A DNA stretch of 64,000 bases from Akkermansiaceae bacterium. Lineage in GTDB: Bacteria; Verrucomicrobiota; Verrucomicrobiia; Verrucomicrobiales; Akkermansiaceae. Position numbers and translations under genes: made by a program. The stretch spans positions 1 to 64,000 of the forward strand of contig CAJJBR010000034.1 in assembly GCA_905182475.1 (NCBI GenBank). Reading direction: 5' to 3'. Positions within the stretch are counted from its first letter, which is position 1; every line of letters begins with the position of its first letter. Positions 52,292 to 64,000 of the stretch are shown here, piece by piece. The notes beneath the pieces are model-generated. The model had not been told where the DNA came from and made no database searches. It saw only the letters and a list, made by a program, of their open reading frames with translations.

Positions 52292-53320
52292 GTGCCTGAT
52301 GCGGAAGAGAACCCCTTTGTTGCGAAAATGACTGCGGACGGAGAGTTCCTTCGCTCCGCTTTCCAGGCCATGCTAAAAGCGAGGATACTGGAAAATAAGC
52401 TCTCCAGCCTATACAAGGCCGGGAAAATCGTCGGTGGCGTGTATCTGGGAAGGGGACAGGAAGCGATCAGTGCCTCCCTGGGAACATCCCTTATTCAGGG
52501 CAAGGATTGCTTTGCCCCGTTGATACGGGATCAGGCGGGACGGACTGCTTTTGGCGAACCGTTGATCGACTGCACGCGGACATACCTCGGTTCGGTCGAA
52601 GGGCCGATGAAGGGGCGCGACGGAAATATTCACCGCGGTCGCCCTGAAATGGGAATGCCCGCCATGATTTCCCATCTCGGAGCGCAAGTGCCTCTGATCG
52701 CTGGAATGCTATTTGCGAAACGACTTAAAGGGACGCTGGCTGGATGTGTCGGTGCGACTTCTGTCGGTGATGGTGCTACTTCCACGGGAGCTTTTCACGA
52801 AGGACTAAACCTTGCTGCGGTTGAAAAACTGCCAATGGTCGTGGTGGTCGCGAACAACCAGTTCGCTTACTCAACTCCGAACAGCCGCCAATTCGCATGC
52901 GCGGATCTGGTCGAGCGCGCGAAGGGCTACGGTATTGGTGGTTTTTCCGTAGATGGAACCGATTTTATGGCATGCGCTTCTGTCGTCGGCGAGGCGGTGC
53001 GGCTTGCCCGTGAAGGCGGTGGCCCGCAAATGATCGTGGCGCATTTGCTCAGGCTGGGGGGACACGGTGAGCACGATGATGGCTCCTACGTTCCGGAAGC
53101 AGCACGCAGCGGTCACTACGGGCGCGACTGTATCGAGGTCGCCATGCGCCAGCTTGTCGAAAACGGATTTGCCACTGCTGATGAAATCCTCGCTTGGCAG
53201 GATGAGACCGCCGAAGATGTCCAGAAGGCAGTCGCACAGGCGCAACAAGAGCCATCGCCCGATCCGTATCGGGAAAATTGGACGGCGCTTTCAACCGAAT
53301 TTCCAATATCAACAACGTGA
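52292..53320 (+). CDS. pdhA: Pyruvate dehydrogenase E1 component, alpha subunit
   Basis: GGVYLGRGQEAISASLGTSL, MGMPAMISHLGAQVPLIAGMLFAKRL, VGDGATSTGAFHEGLNLAAVEKLPMVVVVANNQFAYSTP. Confidence 0.92.
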   Translation: MPDAEENPFVAKMTADGEFLRSAFQAMLKARILENKLSSLYKAGKIVGGVYLGRGQEAISASLGTSLIQGKDCFAPLIRDQAGRTAFGEPLIDCTRTYLGSVEGPMKGRDGNIHRGRPEMGMPAMISHLGAQVPLIAGMLFAKRLKGTLAGCVGATSVGDGATSTGAFHEGLNLAAVEKLPMVVVVANNQFAYSTPNSRQFACADLVERAKGYGIGGFSVDGTDFMACASVVGEAVRLAREGGGPQMIVAHLLRLGGHGEHDDGSYVPEAARSGHYGRDCIEVAMRQLVENGFATADEILAWQDETAEDVQKAVAQAQQEPSPDPYRENWTALSTEFPISTT

Positions 53321-54282
53321 GTGTAACCTATATCGATGCGATCCGTGAGGCTCAGGAGACGTTGCTCCGTGAGGATGAAAGGGTGTTTCTCTACGGCCAG
53401 GATATCTCGAGCTTTGGCGGTGCGTTCAAGGCGACCAAAGGGCTTGCGGAAGCTTTTCCCAATCGTGTATTCGACTGCCCTATTTCCGAGGATGCGATGA
53501 TCGGTCTGGCGGTTGGTTCTGCCATCGAGGGAATGCGGCCGATTATCGAGATGCAGTTCGCTGACTTTTCCTCCATCGCTTTCAACCAGATCGTAAACCA
53601 GGCGGCGACGCATTTTTACCGCACTGGCATGCCGATCCCGATTACCGTGCGTCTTCCTTCCGGTGGCACTCCAGGATCCGGCCCTTTCCACAGTCAGAGC
53701 ATGGAGGGGATCTACGCCCAGTATCCGGGCTTGGTTGTCGTGACTCCTGCGACGGTCTCCGACGCCTACCACATGCTCATCGATTCGGTGAAACTCGATG
53801 ATCCGGTTCTCTACTGCGAGCACAAGTTCCTCTACCGCTGGCTCAAGTCGAAAAAAATCAACGGTGACTATCTCCCAATCGGGCAAGCAAGGATCGCTAG
53901 GCCGGGGAAACACGCAACTGTCGTAACCTATAGTGCGATGGTGCACGAGGCGGTGCGCGCAGCAGACCGTTTGCAGGCGGATGGCTACGAGATCGAAGTC
54001 GTGGATCTTCGTTCAGTGAAACCTCTGGATCTTGATACCGTCCTTGCCTCTGTGGCACGGACCGGAAGATTGCTCGCACTCGGTGAGGCTTTTCCATGGG
54101 GCGGTGTGACGGCTGAGGTCGTTGCGAAAGTCACCGAGGAAGGTTTCCACTTGCTGGATGCTCCTCCGCAGCGACTCAACGCGCGGGATACTCCCGTCCC
54201 TTACCACCCCAAGCTCTGGGCTGCGCATCGACCTACTCCAGAATCGATTTGTGAAGCTTTGAGAAAACTACTATCCTTTTAG
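53317..54282 (+). CDS. pdhB: Pyruvate dehydrogenase E1 component, beta subunit
   Basis: GTG start overlapping the pdhA stop; VTYIDAIREAQETLLREDERVFLYGQDISSFGGAFKATKGL, VDLRSVKPLDLDTVLASVARTGRLLALGEA. Confidence 0.93.
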   Translation: MSVTYIDAIREAQETLLREDERVFLYGQDISSFGGAFKATKGLAEAFPNRVFDCPISEDAMIGLAVGSAIEGMRPIIEMQFADFSSIAFNQIVNQAATHFYRTGMPIPITVRLPSGGTPGSGPFHSQSMEGIYAQYPGLVVVTPATVSDAYHMLIDSVKLDDPVLYCEHKFLYRWLKSKKINGDYLPIGQARIARPGKHATVVTYSAMVHEAVRAADRLQADGYEIEVVDLRSVKPLDLDTVLASVARTGRLLALGEAFPWGGVTAEVVAKVTEEGFHLLDAPPQRLNARDTPVPYHPKLWAAHRPTPESICEALRKLLSF

Positions 54283-54304
54283 TAACTAAGAAGTAACCAA
54301 GACC

Positions 54305-55537
54305 ATGCCTATCGTTCCAATTTTGATGCCACAGCTCGGAGAATCCATCGCCGAGGCAACGGTCATCCGCCTTGATATCGCGCTCGGGGATTCCGTGAAA
54401 ACGGATCAGGAAATCATCGAGGTGGAAACCAACAAGGCGGTGATGGGCGTTACGACTCTGTGCGACGGTGTCGTTTCGGAAATCAGGGCGGTGGAAGGGG
54501 TTTCCTATTCCGTGGGATCGCTGCTGGGTTTTCTGGAGGTGACCGAGGAGGAGGTTACCAGGACAGGTGTCGATACGACTGAGTCCCTTGAGGCGAAAAA
54601 GGATCCCCAGCCAGATCAGAAGAATGACGAGGAAGAGAATCTCCACTTCGCCCTCGACGGCGATTCCTATGAAGAGGATCCGAGTATCATTCCGAGCGTG
54701 AAAGGCCTGCCAGTGCCTACCGGCGTGATGGGTGCCCATTACATTTCCCCGAGAATGCGTGCACGCATGAACGACATGGGACTGCGTGAGGCAGATATTT
54801 CAGCCATCGTCGGAACAGGTGCAGGCGGACGTGTCACCGTCGAAGACCTTGAGCGGTTCCTCGACTATCTTGACGAGTGGCCAAGCGTCGCGGCATCACC
54901 GATGCGCATGGCGGTAGCCGATGCGATGCGACGGAGCTGGACTAGACCTCTCGCGACGGTCGGCCTGCCCGTTTTACTTGACCGAGCACTCGATCACCGC
55001 CGCTCCCAAAATCCGAAGCCCGGCCTGACCCTTTACCTTCTCCGCGCTCTCGCCCTCGCCCTCGCCGAGCAACCGATGACAGCAGGTTATCTGATCGGTG
55101 AAAAAGTGGTTCATCCCCGCTCCTTCGACATCGGTGTCGCGGTGCAGGTAGAGGATGGAGTGGTGGTTCCGACAGTTCGGAAAGTGGATCAAAAATCGTT
55201 GAGTGAGCTTGTCGCTGATTACGACGATCTTGTTGATCGCGCGCGTCGCCGTAGGCTTACCGAGGAGGATTCCAGCGGAGGGATCGCCACCGTTACCAAT
55301 TTCGGAACGTTCGGGCTTACCACCGGAACACCCATCCCACTGCCAAATGAAACCCTTATCCTCGGGATAGGGGCAGGAAAAAAGAAGCCGGTCTGGAGCG
55401 ATCAAGTGGAGGCTTTCCTCCCCGCCACAGAAGCCCAACTGCTACTGACTTTCGACCATCGCGTGGTCGATGGCGGTGGTGCAGGGGTTCTGTTAAAACG
55501 TGTTGCAGCACTCCTTCAGCAGCCCGAGAGTCTATAA
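54305..55537 (+). CDS. Dihydrolipoamide acyltransferase (E2), single lipoyl domain
   Basis: PQLGESIAEATVIRLDIALGDSVKTDQEIIEVETNKAVM lipoyl motif; peripheral-subunit binding YISPRMRARMNDMGL; LLLTFDHRVVDGGGAGVLLKRV. Confidence 0.92.
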   Translation: MPIVPILMPQLGESIAEATVIRLDIALGDSVKTDQEIIEVETNKAVMGVTTLCDGVVSEIRAVEGVSYSVGSLLGFLEVTEEEVTRTGVDTTESLEAKKDPQPDQKNDEEENLHFALDGDSYEEDPSIIPSVKGLPVPTGVMGAHYISPRMRARMNDMGLREADISAIVGTGAGGRVTVEDLERFLDYLDEWPSVAASPMRMAVADAMRRSWTRPLATVGLPVLLDRALDHRRSQNPKPGLTLYLLRALALALAEQPMTAGYLIGEKVVHPRSFDIGVAVQVEDGVVVPTVRKVDQKSLSELVADYDDLVDRARRRRLTEEDSSGGIATVTNFGTFGLTTGTPIPLPNETLILGIGAGKKKPVWSDQVEAFLPATEAQLLLTFDHRVVDGGGAGVLLKRVAALLQQPESL

Positions 55538-55549
55538 CGACTTGTTATT

Positions 55550-56191
55550 GTGGACGCTGATACAGATAAACCCGATAAGGTGGATATCCCGAAAAAGGCG
55601 ATCTACCGCCTTTCGATCTACCACCGTTGTTTGCAGAAGCTGAAGGCTACGGATCAGGAGACGGTCAGTTCTACCACGCTTGCCAAAGCTGCTGGAGTCA
55701 CCCCCTCCCAACTGCGGAGGGATCTGGGCTATTTCGGCCAGTTCGGCACCCGCGGCCTAGGATATCCAGTGGACAATCTTATCACGACGATACGCGAGGC
55801 ATTGGGACGCGAGCAACTGCAACCTGTAGTTCTCGTTGGCGCGGGGAATCTCGGCTCTGCGCTCCTTCGTTACCAGGGTTTCCAGAAAGGCGGCTTTGAT
55901 GTCATTGCTGCCTTCGATGCGAGACCCGAAGAGGCGCGCGCCAAGGAACTCGAAATACCGGTGCATGATGTTTCCATGATGGCAAAATTCATTTTCGAGA
56001 ACGAAGTAAAACTGGCCATACTCTGCGTGCCCGTCGGATTTGCTCAGGAGGTTGCGAATTGCCTGGTCGCTTATGGTATCCAAGGGATTCTGAACTTTTC
56101 AACGATCATGCTGGAGGTGCCTTCCGACGTGACCGTGAACAACGTGGATCTGGCTATGGAGCTGGAGCATCTCGGATATTTCATCAGATGA
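55550..56191 (+). CDS. rex: Redox-sensing transcriptional repressor Rex
   Basis: IPKKAIYRLSIYHRCL, TTLAKAAGVTPSQLRRDLGYFGQFGTRGLGY, PVVLVGAGNLGSALLRYQGFQKGGFDVIAAFD. Confidence 0.95.
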   Translation: MDADTDKPDKVDIPKKAIYRLSIYHRCLQKLKATDQETVSSTTLAKAAGVTPSQLRRDLGYFGQFGTRGLGYPVDNLITTIREALGREQLQPVVLVGAGNLGSALLRYQGFQKGGFDVIAAFDARPEEARAKELEIPVHDVSMMAKFIFENEVKLAILCVPVGFAQEVANCLVAYGIQGILNFSTIMLEVPSDVTVNNVDLAMELEHLGYFIR

Positions 56192-56790
56192 TTCCCGAAA
56201 AGGAATATCTCCCTAAGAAGGAAGGTGGTGTGCGCGTTGCTGAAGGTAGCAGAGATGAAATGTCCGTAATACCGATGCAACCGCAGGAATTCGAGGAGTT
56301 CATCGAGCAAGCGGTGAACGACCACGAATCTGCCCTGACTGGCTATGCAAGAACCTACCTACATGACTTGGAACGATCGCGCGATGTCGTGCAGGATACA
56401 TTCATCCGCCTGTGCAAGCAGGATCCGGAGAAGGTGCGTAAATATCTTAAGACATGGCTGTTTACTGTCTGCCGGAACCGTTGTCTCGATGTCATCCGGA
56501 AGGACAAGCGAGTCGAGCCTCTCGACGAAATTCGTTGGCAAAAAGTCGCTGGGACGGAATCGGCTCCAGATGAACAGGCTGAATATGACGAGGCCGTTGC
56601 CGACGTCATGCGTTTCATGGACAGGCTTTCAAAAAACCAGAAGGAGGTCATTTTGTTGAAATTCCAACAAGGGATGAGCTACGGGGAGATCAGCGATGTC
56701 ACGGGGCTTACGTCCGGAAATATCGGTTTCCTAATCCACACGGGATTGAAGCGGTTACGGGAAATGATGCCGGGAAAAGTGAAAATTTGA
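56188..56790 (+). CDS. ECF-type RNA polymerase sigma factor
   Basis: ATGA overlap with rex; RSRDVVQDTFIRLCKQ, WLFTVCRNRCLDVIRKDKR, RLSKNQKEVILLKFQQGMSYGEISDVTGLTSGNIGFLIHTGLKRLRE. Confidence 0.93.
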   Translation: MIPEKEYLPKKEGGVRVAEGSRDEMSVIPMQPQEFEEFIEQAVNDHESALTGYARTYLHDLERSRDVVQDTFIRLCKQDPEKVRKYLKTWLFTVCRNRCLDVIRKDKRVEPLDEIRWQKVAGTESAPDEQAEYDEAVADVMRFMDRLSKNQKEVILLKFQQGMSYGEISDVTGLTSGNIGFLIHTGLKRLREMMPGKVKI

Positions 56791-56791
56791 T

Positions 56792-57922
56792 ATGAAACTT
56801 CATCAGGAAGATCCAAGACTGACCGCATATTTGCTGGGTGAACTTTCGCCGAAGGAAGCCGAGGCGGTCGAGAGCGCGACAGCGACCGATGAAGCTTTGC
56901 GTGCCGTTCTTGGGGGCACGAGTCGTATGTGTACGGATCTGAAGGCGTTGCTGGATAGTGACGACGGAGACCACCTCCTTCCAAAGCATCGCGAGAACAT
57001 CCGCAAGGCATCGAAAGTTGCGGCGCGCCAAGGGAAAATTGAACTGCTCAAGTCGCATCGCCAGGCTCGTAAAGTTTGGCAAATCCCGTTGGCAGCAGCA
57101 GCAGTCATCGGTGGTGGTGTTTTTCTGCTGACCTTAATTTCATCTCCGAAACGAGGTGGCACCAAGCCGGTGGCAACGAAAACGAATACCCCGAATTCCG
57201 ATAATACTGGAATCGAGGCCGTACCTAGTGATGGCAACGTGATGCGACTTCCACTAGACGCTGGTAAACGTAGCCTTTCCCTTATTACCAATGCTGTGCG
57301 CATCGATGACAGAATGCCCACACAGCAAGATGTGAGGATCGAGGAACTCCTTAATGCGTTCCCATTGAAAGCCAAGGGTACCGCTGCACTATGGAAGGGA
57401 TGTTCTCTCGCCGCTGAGATCCTACCGTGCCCGTGGCGCCCGTCTGGAAACCTCATTTTCGTATCCCTCCAAGGTGCCAAGGATGAGGATAGGAAACTTT
57501 CCATCGAACTCCAAACTGACGGGAATTCAATATCCAATCATAGACTCTTAGGTTACTCGATCGGGGCGGGTAATATGAACGTTGCTCCTGCTGTAACGAC
57601 GATTCCTGCAGGAGAATCGGTCGTGCTCGTAATCGAAGCAGTAGCGAATGGAAAGGGACTGGGCACGCTTACATGGACTATTGATGGCGCCGGTGCTCCA
57701 CCTGTGGAGCTCGTTTTTTATCCCGAGAAAGAGCCTTCAGATGACGCAAGCTTCGCCACGCTGATCTGCGGATTTGGTCTTTGGCTTAGAGGGGAGGGGA
57801 AACCTACGATCGATGATCTGCTAGTGCTTGCGCTAGCACGCGAGGCAGCTGCGGAAAATCTCGTGGCCGACCGCTACGATTTTATCACTCTCGTCGACCA
57901 GGCAGTGAAGCTTTCCGAGTAG
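56792..57922 (+). CDS. Membrane-anchored YfbK-like protein lacking the central VWA domain; putative anti-sigma-like N-terminus
   Basis: N-term DPRLTAYLLGELSPKEAEAVESA; one TM segment; VRIEELLNAFPLK, EILPCPWRPSGNLIFVSLQGAK, HRLLGYSIGAGNM, ASFATLICGFGLWLRGEGKPTIDDLLVLAL...RYDFITLVDQA. Confidence 0.7.
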   Translation: MKLHQEDPRLTAYLLGELSPKEAEAVESATATDEALRAVLGGTSRMCTDLKALLDSDDGDHLLPKHRENIRKASKVAARQGKIELLKSHRQARKVWQIPLAAAAVIGGGVFLLTLISSPKRGGTKPVATKTNTPNSDNTGIEAVPSDGNVMRLPLDAGKRSLSLITNAVRIDDRMPTQQDVRIEELLNAFPLKAKGTAALWKGCSLAAEILPCPWRPSGNLIFVSLQGAKDEDRKLSIELQTDGNSISNHRLLGYSIGAGNMNVAPAVTTIPAGESVVLVIEAVANGKGLGTLTWTIDGAGAPPVELVFYPEKEPSDDASFATLICGFGLWLRGEGKPTIDDLLVLALAREAAAENLVADRYDFITLVDQAVKLSE

Positions 57923-61318: not shown

Positions 61319-64000
61319 CTACAGGTTGTCTTTGCTGTTGCCTCTTTTCTTGGAGACTTTCTTGGCCGCTTTTTTCGCGGCTTTGGCTCTTTCCTTCTCC
61401 TTTTCTTCGGCTGCTTCATCGTCATCCATGGTGTGGGTGAGGATGAACTGGAGGTCGTCCATACCGAGGTTGGAAGCGAAGCCTTCGTCTCCGAGGACGT
61501 TGGTGACGAGCTGGGTCTTCTGATGCTGGAGGACACGGATCTTCTCCTCCACCGTTTCCCTTGTGAGCAGGCGGTAGGCGATGACTTTGTTCTTCTGGCC
61601 GATGCGGTGCGTCCGGTCGATCGCCTGGTTTTCTACGGCGGGGTTCCACCATGGATCGTAGAGGATGACGTAGGAGGCGGAGGTGAGGTTGAGGCCGGCA
61701 CCACCCGCTTTCAGCGAGAGCATGAAGACGGAAGGATCTTTGGTCGTCTGGAATCGCTCGATCTCGCCTTTACGGTCCTTGGTTTGGCCGGTGAGGTAAT
61801 GGAACGGACGTGCTTCGAGTTCGAGGCGTGCCTTGATGAGGTCGAGCATGGAAACGAACTGCGAGAAGACCAAAACCTTGTGGTTCTCCTCGTGGAGTTG
61901 ATCCAAAAGGTAGAAGAGGGATTCCATTTTCGCGGATTCCTCTTTGAGGTATTTCGGATCGATGAGGCCGGGGTGGCAGCAGATCTGGCGGAGGCGCATG
62001 AGGCCTTGCAAGATTGCGAATGAATTCTTTTTGACCGCTTCATCGGAGTCGAGTCCGAGTAGGGCTTTCTGGATTCGTTTGAGTTCGTTTTTGTAGAGCT
62101 CAAGCTGCACTCCTTCCATTTTCGAATAGACCTCTTCCTCTGTCCGTGGCGGGAGATCCTGGGCAACCTGGAGTTTCGTCCGACGGAGCAGGAATGGGCG
62201 TAGGCGAGAGGCGAGGCGATTCTGGGAAAGGGGATCCTTCCGCTTGTCGAAGCGCTTCTTGAAGTAGGCACGGTTGCCTAGCACACCGGGCATGGCGAAG
62301 GCCATGAGCGACCACATGTCGAGCAGGCGGTTCTCGATAGGAGTACCTGTTAGGACAAGGCGGTTTTGAGAATCCAGCTCACGAGCGCACTTGGCAGCCT
62401 TCGAGTCAGGGTTCTTGATTTGCTGGCCTTCGTCGAGGATGGTGGTGAGCCATTTGATTTCGGCAAGTTCCTCGCCGCAGACGCGGAGCTGGGCATAGTT
62501 CAGAACGAGCATGTCGATGTTGTTCTGAATGTGCGAGACATCGATATCGTCGCGGTTCTTGAGAATCTTGACTCTGAGTTCCGGAGTGAATTTCTCCGCT
62601 TCGGAATACCAGACATCGAGAACGGATTTCGGGCAGACGATGAGCGCAGGTTTGTGTGGTCCTCCACTGTCTTTTTGGCGTTTGAAGAGCCAAAGGAGAT
62701 AAGTCAGGGACTGGATGGTTTTTCCTAGTCCCATGTCGTCCGCTAGGATACCACCGAAGTTGTTTTCCGAGAGGTATGCGAGGAAATGGTAGCCATCGAT
62801 CTGGTATGGACGAAGGGTGGCGTTGAGGCCATCCGGAAGCGGAGGTGTGACTTCGAGTTTGATGTCGTTCGCGCGATTTTTGATGCGCTCCCATGCCTTC
62901 GGATCGAAGACCTCTGCGGCCTTTGGATCGGCAAGCTGGAGGGCGTGCATGCGGTGGGTCTCGCCGGATAGATCGAATGGATCAAGCCCGAGGCGGGTGA
63001 CTGCTTCGCGCTGATCCGCATCGAGTTTGATTTCCAAACGCATCCACGACCCATCATCCATACGGACGTAGCCACCGCGTGCGGCAACGAGTTGGCGGAT
63101 CTGGGATTTGGAGAGATTGACTCCTTGCACATCGATGACAATGCGGAGATCGAACCAGTCGATGTCCTGTCCGACGACTTCGAAACGCACGGCGGCAGTG
63201 ACAGGGTCATCGAGGATGGATTTCAGGCGAAGGTCGATATCTAACTCGATTTCAGGAGGCATGGAACGCACCCATTCGGCGAATTTTTCAGGGAACTGTT
63301 TCGTGATCCGGGATTTGAATGCTTCAAGTTTCTCGTCGTAAGCGAGGGACATTTCGTCGAGGATGGGAGGAACCGGATAGAGCGGCTCGCGGGCGAAACG
63401 GAGGAGTTGTTTGCCTTTGACCGGCTGCTGATCGACGAGTTCCCAGCCTTCCTTGGTGAGGCGCTCGGTGCGGCGGCCTTTTGTTTCGATAGCGGTGACG
63501 TCGATGACAAGGTGCTCGGTTTCTGCTGCGGTGAGTCCAGCTACGAGTTTGATCTCCAGCTTCGGCTTCAGCTCCAGATCGACGACTCGTTTCTTGAGTG
63601 ACTCCGGAAGGCTGGCTCCGATTTTGCGGAGGAATTCTACGCCTTCAAGCGAGTCGATGACCTTCCTCGGAATGTGGTAGCGAGGCATGACCTCCGTGTT
63701 CTCAAGCCAGCGTGGCGGACCTGGGAAAACGGTTTCGTCGGACTGGTAGAGCTCCTTGCGACCGGGAAGCAGGCGGACGGAGTGGGAAACGTTTTCACCT
63801 GTGCCGGTGATGAGTTGAATTGCGAAGGAGTTCGGATCGTAAGCTTCGTCTTCGCAAGTCCAGGAAAGGGCTTCTTCGCAAACTTTGAACGGGCGGTCGT
63901 CGAGGTTAACGAGGTAGCCTTCGAGTGCAGGCTGCTGGAACACACGGTTCATAAAACGGCAGGATTCCTCTTGATCGAAGTCGAGTGTGGTATCGCCGTG
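61319..64000 (-). CDS. SNF2-family DEAD/DEAH helicase, 5' end beyond the window
   Basis: GGILADDMGLGKTIQSLTYLLWL, LDEGQQIKNPDSKAAKCARELDSQNRLVLTGTPIENRLLDMWSLMAFAMPG, LKAGGAGLNLTSASYVILYDPWWNPAVENQAIDRTHRIGQ; frame stays open past Met 63952 to the edge. Confidence 0.95.
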   Translation of the reverse strand, partial: HGDTTLDFDQEESCRFMNRVFQQPALEGYLVNLDDRPFKVCEEALSWTCEDEAYDPNSFAIQLITGTGENVSHSVRLLPGRKELYQSDETVFPGPPRWLENTEVMPRYHIPRKVIDSLEGVEFLRKIGASLPESLKKRVVDLELKPKLEIKLVAGLTAAETEHLVIDVTAIETKGRRTERLTKEGWELVDQQPVKGKQLLRFAREPLYPVPPILDEMSLAYDEKLEAFKSRITKQFPEKFAEWVRSMPPEIELDIDLRLKSILDDPVTAAVRFEVVGQDIDWFDLRIVIDVQGVNLSKSQIRQLVAARGGYVRMDDGSWMRLEIKLDADQREAVTRLGLDPFDLSGETHRMHALQLADPKAAEVFDPKAWERIKNRANDIKLEVTPPLPDGLNATLRPYQIDGYHFLAYLSENNFGGILADDMGLGKTIQSLTYLLWLFKRQKDSGGPHKPALIVCPKSVLDVWYSEAEKFTPELRVKILKNRDDIDVSHIQNNIDMLVLNYAQLRVCGEELAEIKWLTTILDEGQQIKNPDSKAAKCARELDSQNRLVLTGTPIENRLLDMWSLMAFAMPGVLGNRAYFKKRFDKRKDPLSQNRLASRLRPFLLRRTKLQVAQDLPPRTEEEVYSKMEGVQLELYKNELKRIQKALLGLDSDEAVKKNSFAILQGLMRLRQICCHPGLIDPKYLKEESAKMESLFYLLDQLHEENHKVLVFSQFVSMLDLIKARLELEARPFHYLTGQTKDRKGEIERFQTTKDPSVFMLSLKAGGAGLNLTSASYVILYDPWWNPAVENQAIDRTHRIGQKNKVIAYRLLTRETVEEKIRVLQHQKTQLVTNVLGDEGFASNLGMDDLQFILTHTMDDDEAAEEKEKERAKAAKKAAKKVSKKRGNSKDNL

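Follow-up and report, generated by a model that had tools for sequence, protein, structure and literature searches.

A putative membrane anti-sigma factor of the Akkermansiaceae with a YfbK-type domain that lacks the VWA insert

The 64,000-nucleotide stretch of Akkermansiaceae DNA analysed here (the window) encodes a 376-residue protein that is probably a membrane anti-sigma factor, with a periplasmic part formed by a YfbK/ArnB-type split beta-sandwich and three-helix bundle that has lost its inserted VWA domain without a break in the frame. We assign this reading a probability of roughly 70%. The VWA-less gene begins one nucleotide past the stop codon of an ECF sigma factor gene and is intact and conserved, not broken. 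Computation shows that its product is homologous over its full length to anti-sigma/transmembrane/YfbK proteins that carry a VWA between two strands of the sandwich, and that absence of the VWA arose more than once; the VWA is a dispensable insert. An anti-sigma role is likely, judging from the N-terminal domain, the linkage to the sigma gene and the joint loss of domain and sigma gene in congeners. The sandwich and bundle probably have a sigma-independent envelope function as well, as several congeners have kept the sandwich after losing the sigma gene.

Domain composition and predicted fold

The window protein matches both YfbK families in the order found in YfbK, vWF_A/YfbK_N (PF12450) at residues 155–221 (E 5.5e-5) and YfbK_C (PF12034) at residues 313–373 (E 0.0055), with both hmmscan scores under the Pfam gathering scores, that of PF12450 slightly so. 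The N-terminus gives a weak zf-HC2 match in Pfam (residues 9–28, E 0.002) and a match to the NCBIfam 'anti-sigma factor' model NF052375 (residues 10–114, E 7.8e-8), which scores far under its curated cut-off of 100 bits. Since these single-protein scores are modest, the ortholog family was tested as a set of 27 congeneric orthologs that includes the window protein (set A1). PF12450 matches all 27 (best E 8.7e-9), as does NF052375 (best E 2.3e-13), while PF12034 and zf-HC2 match 26 and 21, respectively. No VWA model matches any of the 27 and the window protein contains no DxSxS (MIDAS) motif, which rules out a hidden VWA. DxSxS strings present in L088 and L072 were taken as chance occurrences, neither protein being matched by any VWA model. 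The zinc motif HxxxCxxC (Hx3Cx2C) is absent from the window protein and from the 38 relatives checked. The membrane helix is predicted to be oriented N-in from the basic residues that precede it. The positions of these features and of the upstream genes are listed in Table 1.

Table 1. Features of the sigma-linked locus, in window coordinates
Feature	Position	Strand	Evidence
Pyruvate dehydrogenase E1 alpha-like gene, first of cluster	52292..53320	+	TIGR03181 E 3.5e-56
Pyruvate dehydrogenase E1 beta-like gene	53278..54282	+	NF008854 E 1.2e-81
2-oxo-acid dehydrogenase E2 (dihydrolipoyl acyltransferase) gene	54305..55537	+	NF008814 E 5e-50
Redox-sensing repressor Rex gene	55550..56191	+	NF003995 E 5.3e-70, above cut-off
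ECF sigma factor gene, 176 aa (inferred ATG start at 56260)	56260..56790	+	Pfam, TIGR02937
VWA-less anti-sigma/YfbK-type membrane protein (putative), 376 aa	56792..57922	+	Pfam, NCBIfam, profile alignment
Zinc-less anti-sigma domain, residues 1–80	56792..57031	+	NF052375, AlphaFold helices, homology to N-terminus of VWA-bearing relatives
Single transmembrane helix, residues 95–116	57074..57139	+	Judged from sequence VWQIPLAAAAVIGGGVFLLTLI
YfbK_N part of beta-sandwich, residues 150–230	57239..57481	+	PF12450; pLDDT 89–98
Short turn at the VWA insertion place of relatives, residues 228–233	57473..57490	+	HHalign gap, model strands
YfbK_C part of beta-sandwich, residues 234–308	57491..57715	+	HHalign, model
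C-terminal three-helix bundle (end of YfbK_C), residues 317–375	57740..57916	+	PF12034 313–373, model helices

Alignment of the A1 profile with that of 26 VWA-bearing YfbK proteins runs end to end, from residue 1 to the C-terminus (HHalign E 6.9e-27, 395 columns), with a single long gap at about residues 230–233 that spans the whole VWA (~190 residues). The N-terminal domain is included, MKLHQEDPRLTAYLLGELSPKEAEAVE pairing with a similar stretch in the relatives. These results bear out what the preliminary description had read from the window: YfbK-type blocks on either side of a VWA that is missing, with its MIDAS motif, from an intact frame; an N-terminus resembling a zinc-less anti-sigma domain; and a neighbouring ECF sigma gene. 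The YfbK similarity that it proposed to check by profile alignment is present, and no VWA core is recognised within the 376 residues.

The AlphaFold model of the window protein, made with 18 relatives, has N-terminal helices at residues 8–14, 20–32, 34–55 and 64–80, followed by a low-confidence helix (88–116) over the predicted membrane segment. Beyond it lie strands 150–153, 197–201, 204–212, 219–227, 234–242, 247–252, 269–271, 276–285, 289–297 and 305–308 and helices 161–171, 183–187, 317–333, 342–352 and 359–375, together a closed, complete beta-sandwich and a three-helix bundle. Block pLDDT is 83–98 from residue 151 onward, except at 251–270 (74, 66), most of the sandwich and bundle reaching 87–98, and the six-residue turn joining strands 219–227 and 234–242 is modelled at pLDDT ~95. 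L175, a VWA-bearing, sigma-linked protein from an Opitutus MAG, arranges its elements in this same order and holds its VWA (~295–472) between strands 272–284 and 476–487, which map by HHalign to window strands 219–227 and 234–242; the equivalence of the two folds rests on this sequence mapping and element order rather than on superposed models. The parts that the preliminary description called flanking domains are better regarded as one split domain that holds the VWA as an insert. Since the VWA and MIDAS feature is missing, we call the window protein a VWA-less derivative or sister of the YfbK family, not a standard member.

Among solved structures, the best match of L175 is ArnB (8s05, E 8.6e-17). 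A sequence search of solved structures with the VWA-less L101 found nothing, and the only match of the ortholog profile was a weak one to 3hug_B (E 0.71), a mycobacterial sigma/anti-sigma complex, to which no weight was given. A fold search with the window model returned adaptin-ear beta-sandwiches at E 3e-4; these were read as generic sandwich similarity.

Distribution of VWA-less and VWA-bearing forms

The VWA-less protein is matched in 48 of 60 congeneric genomes, where the reading frame was read and checked for a VWA in fetched loci and the remaining genomes were judged from match spacing; one match (G052) is cut by a contig end. Carriers include genomes assembled as one contig (G004, G049), and the records of named relatives are Akkermansiaceae/Verrucomicrobiaceae MAGs. 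At the congeneric locus L070:4849-5983 (minus strand), the anti-sigma part and the sandwich occupy two overlapping frames, as a frameshift or a split gene. Outside the congeneric clade, L095, L100, L101, L121, L137, L155 and L161 are VWA-less with far stronger YfbK scores, L099 is VWA-less with a weaker score than these, and L096, L097 and L098 each match just one YfbK domain, not both. Beyond the congeners, VWA-less forms are known from other Verrucomicrobiota and from one Phycisphaerae locus (L137), which stands alone so far, a search of 25 related genomes at a strict E of 1e-60 having yielded no further example. VWA-bearing forms span many phyla.

An ECF gene lies upstream in nine of the eleven non-congeneric VWA-less loci, the other two starting at a contig end, and in 30 of the 75 fetched VWA-bearing relatives with upstream sequence, mostly from Verrucomicrobiota and Planctomycetota; all these loci form one similarity-led sample with some near-duplicates, and the counts are not rates. 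VWA-less and VWA-bearing relatives beside ECF genes are both present; the preliminary description had suggested a search for such paralogs. The sigma link does not depend on loss of the VWA, for VWA-bearing relatives also carry the same anti-sigma domain and the ECF neighbour. A second, much longer family of sigma-linked YfbK-VWA proteins (~900–1500 residues; L102, L103, L104, L106, L107, L111) is found in the same genus and order as the window, and its YfbK_C match is short (~60 residues).

In trees computed from the sandwich and bundle after removal of the VWA region, parsimony counts five changes of VWA state in a quick tree (103 rows) and four in a careful tree (68 rows). Starred branches force at least three changes, and none of 200 bootstrap trees contains a single VWA-less clade. 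Starred support also places two VWA-less rows inside VWA-bearing clades, L155 next to Opitutaceae rows and L121 next to L105. L155 retains HPVFLPDVSGSMDAPTRLPL, the start (first strand) of the VWA with the MIDAS motif DVSGSM, and passes from this stub directly to TIAKDVKVQVEFNP in the second sandwich half. The direction in L155 and L121 is loss, because of their nesting and of the stub kept in L155. The L155 frame (L155:3-1031, plus strand), at the start of a contig from a groundwater MAG, carries the stub DVSGSMDAPTRLPL and then the second sandwich half. The body of this VWA appears to be gone while its start remains, although the frame lies at a contig end; L155 and L137 are each represented by a single MAG. 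A very long stem beside the midpoint root carries the genus clade, whose placement in the tree is unsure; the change there was probably loss of the VWA, with gain in the relatives as a less likely alternative.

The sigma neighbour and its loss in congeners

The protein encoded immediately upstream matches Sigma70_r2 (E 3e-13) and Sigma70_r4_2 (E 8e-11) in Pfam and TIGR02937 (E 2e-25). Its ortholog precedes the VWA-less gene in most congeners, and the order E1 alpha, E1 beta, E2, rex, ECF sigma, VWA-less gene is kept in most congeners with the VWA-less gene. The cluster of pyruvate dehydrogenase E1/E2, rex and ECF sigma genes at 52292–56790 is conserved, and its gene content suggests a possible link of the ECF sigma factor to redox or carbon flux. 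Elsewhere in the window, positions 61319–63952 (minus strand) encode an SNF2-type helicase, with pilus_reg_Snf2 and SCO1167-type models as top NCBIfam matches, well under their cut-offs.

Several congeners have lost the sigma gene, most of them together with the anti-sigma domain. In L079, L080, L083, L126 and L128 the domain is undetectable and the locus has no sigma gene; the L080 reading frame starts at the membrane helix directly past the stop codon of E2, which leaves L080 without rex, sigma gene or anti-sigma domain. L069 has rex and neither sigma gene nor anti-sigma domain, L090 is without the sigma gene and the first half of the domain, and L093 is without the sigma gene and keeps the domain. 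In one genome assembled as a single contig (L108:4285-5835, plus strand), one continuous reading frame joins a degenerate ECF sigma region 2 to the anti-sigma domain tail, the membrane helix and the VWA-less sandwich, in this order; the product may be a membrane-tethered fragment of sigma, or else a relic. Whole-genome searches of the sigma-less congeners recovered no ortholog of the window sigma factor (best E 2e-13 to 8e-26, or none at 1e-12), as compared with E 9e-68 to 6e-92 in three sigma-bearing control genomes. The sigma-less genomes are mostly drafts, and the locus deletions were read in continuous sequence in L069, L080, L090, L093 and L108.

Purifying selection on the VWA-less sandwich after sigma loss is seen in the largest clade without the sigma gene, that of five genomes (L079, L080, L083, L126, L128), where dN/dS over the sandwich and bundle is 0.18–0.26. 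Sigma-bearing pairs give 0.14–0.52. Of the other sigma-less congeners, the computation covered L069, in which dS was saturated, and L093, whose one pair gives 0.41.

Interpretation and relation to known systems

A working model may be proposed for the pair. The N-terminal domain would hold the adjacent ECF sigma factor at the inner membrane, and the periplasmic sandwich and bundle would bind a partner or ligand in the envelope. Such binding could alter the stability of the anti-sigma domain and free the sigma factor, perhaps through regulated proteolysis by analogy with RseA/RsiW systems. In proteins that carry it, the VWA would add a metal-dependent (MIDAS) binding module and would not itself be the core sensor. 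Opinion is evenly balanced on a broader scenario, in which the VWA is an optional plug-in that was excised cleanly several times, and the sandwich and bundle form an independent envelope module that outlasts loss of sigma gene and anti-sigma domain, one lineage ending as the sigma2-TM-sandwich fusion of L108.

The preliminary description had suggested that the YfbK-type parts act in sigma control without the VWA, and this is borne out in part. The anti-sigma-like domain, the ECF neighbour in most orthologs and its presence in all nine other VWA-less loci with upstream sequence speak for it; the sandwich kept in congeners that lost the sigma factor, with dN/dS of ~0.2 in the one measurable clade, does not. 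The same observations leave room for a tentative alternative, in which the sandwich and bundle are chiefly a structural or binding module of the envelope, the anti-sigma domain is secondary and dispensable, and sigma control is not the main role. It accounts for congeners that lack the sigma gene both at the locus and genome-wide, mostly lack the anti-sigma domain and still keep the sandwich, which in the largest clade of this kind is under purifying selection. Against it, most orthologs retain both sigma gene and anti-sigma domain, and sigma linkage is repeated in both Verrucomicrobiota and Planctomycetota, a pattern that speaks for a genuine connection.

Other explanations concern the VWA itself. 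It is unlikely that the VWA-less form is ancestral and that the VWA was inserted later into YfbK proteins: midpoint rooting on the long branch of the genus clade does not fix the direction there, but L155 and L121 lie inside VWA-bearing clades with starred branches, L155 with its stub, and VWA-bearing forms extend across many phyla. It is very unlikely that a VWA is supplied in trans by another protein docking on the sandwich. The genome does contain 13 VWA_2 matches elsewhere, 10 of them above cut-off; however, none lies on the window's contig, the conserved neighbouring genes include no recognisable VWA gene, and PF12450 has its sole match in this genome in the window gene, so that none of the VWA_2 proteins is a YfbK protein. 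Decay of the gene, through recent deletion of the VWA, or misassembly is extremely improbable. Single examples such as L155, at a contig end, could be assembly artefacts, but for the window protein this explanation is ruled out by the ortholog set (48 of 60 congeners, one-contig genomes among them), the kept gene order and purifying selection.

In the literature searched, no description was found of the function of YfbK proteins, which are widespread, of VWA-type anti-sigma factors, or of ECF/anti-sigma pairs with a YfbK-type periplasmic part in Verrucomicrobiota and Planctomycetota; the finding points to such pairs in both phyla. Evolution has in effect dissected the protein by removing the VWA and, in separate events, the sigma gene with the anti-sigma domain; this shows the split sandwich with its helical bundle to be the conserved core, and the MIDAS domain to be dispensable. 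The VWA-free domain is small (~230 residues) and suited to structural and ligand studies.

E. coli YfbK is a lipoprotein of unknown function. Like YfbK-type proteins of this kind (PF12450, VWA, PF12034), the window protein has the two YfbK domains in the same order, and both profile and predicted fold indicate a sandwich and a bundle of helices of the same type; it differs in having no VWA and no MIDAS motif and in possessing an anti-sigma domain, a transmembrane helix and an upstream ECF gene. Closer in build are the ECF-linked anti-sigma/TM/YfbK-VWA proteins of Verrucomicrobiota and Planctomycetota, for example L110, L117, L150 (Chthoniobacter), L175 (Opitutus) and L181 (Singulisphaera), which have a related N-terminal domain, the sandwich, the bundle and the upstream ECF gene. 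Unlike the window protein, they carry a VWA inserted in the sandwich, and some contain TPRs or long linkers.

Class I anti-sigma factors (zf-HC2/RskA/RseA-like) likewise combine an N-terminal helical domain, one transmembrane helix and an ECF neighbour, and the window protein shows their testable features except for the optional zinc motif. Zinc-less members are a known type, ~44% of class I anti-sigma factors being without the Hx3Cx2C motif (PMC7406223). The window protein is distinguished by its YfbK-type periplasmic sandwich, and its sigma binding is predicted. In ArnB, a sandwich split by a vWA is followed by a helical domain, and E. coli YfbK is predicted to have the same build (PMC12852372). 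L175 has this split sandwich with a vWA, as in the ArnB / Sec23-24 core motif, whereas in the window protein, which is bacterial, membrane-bound and sigma-linked, sandwich and helices are present and the vWA insert is not.
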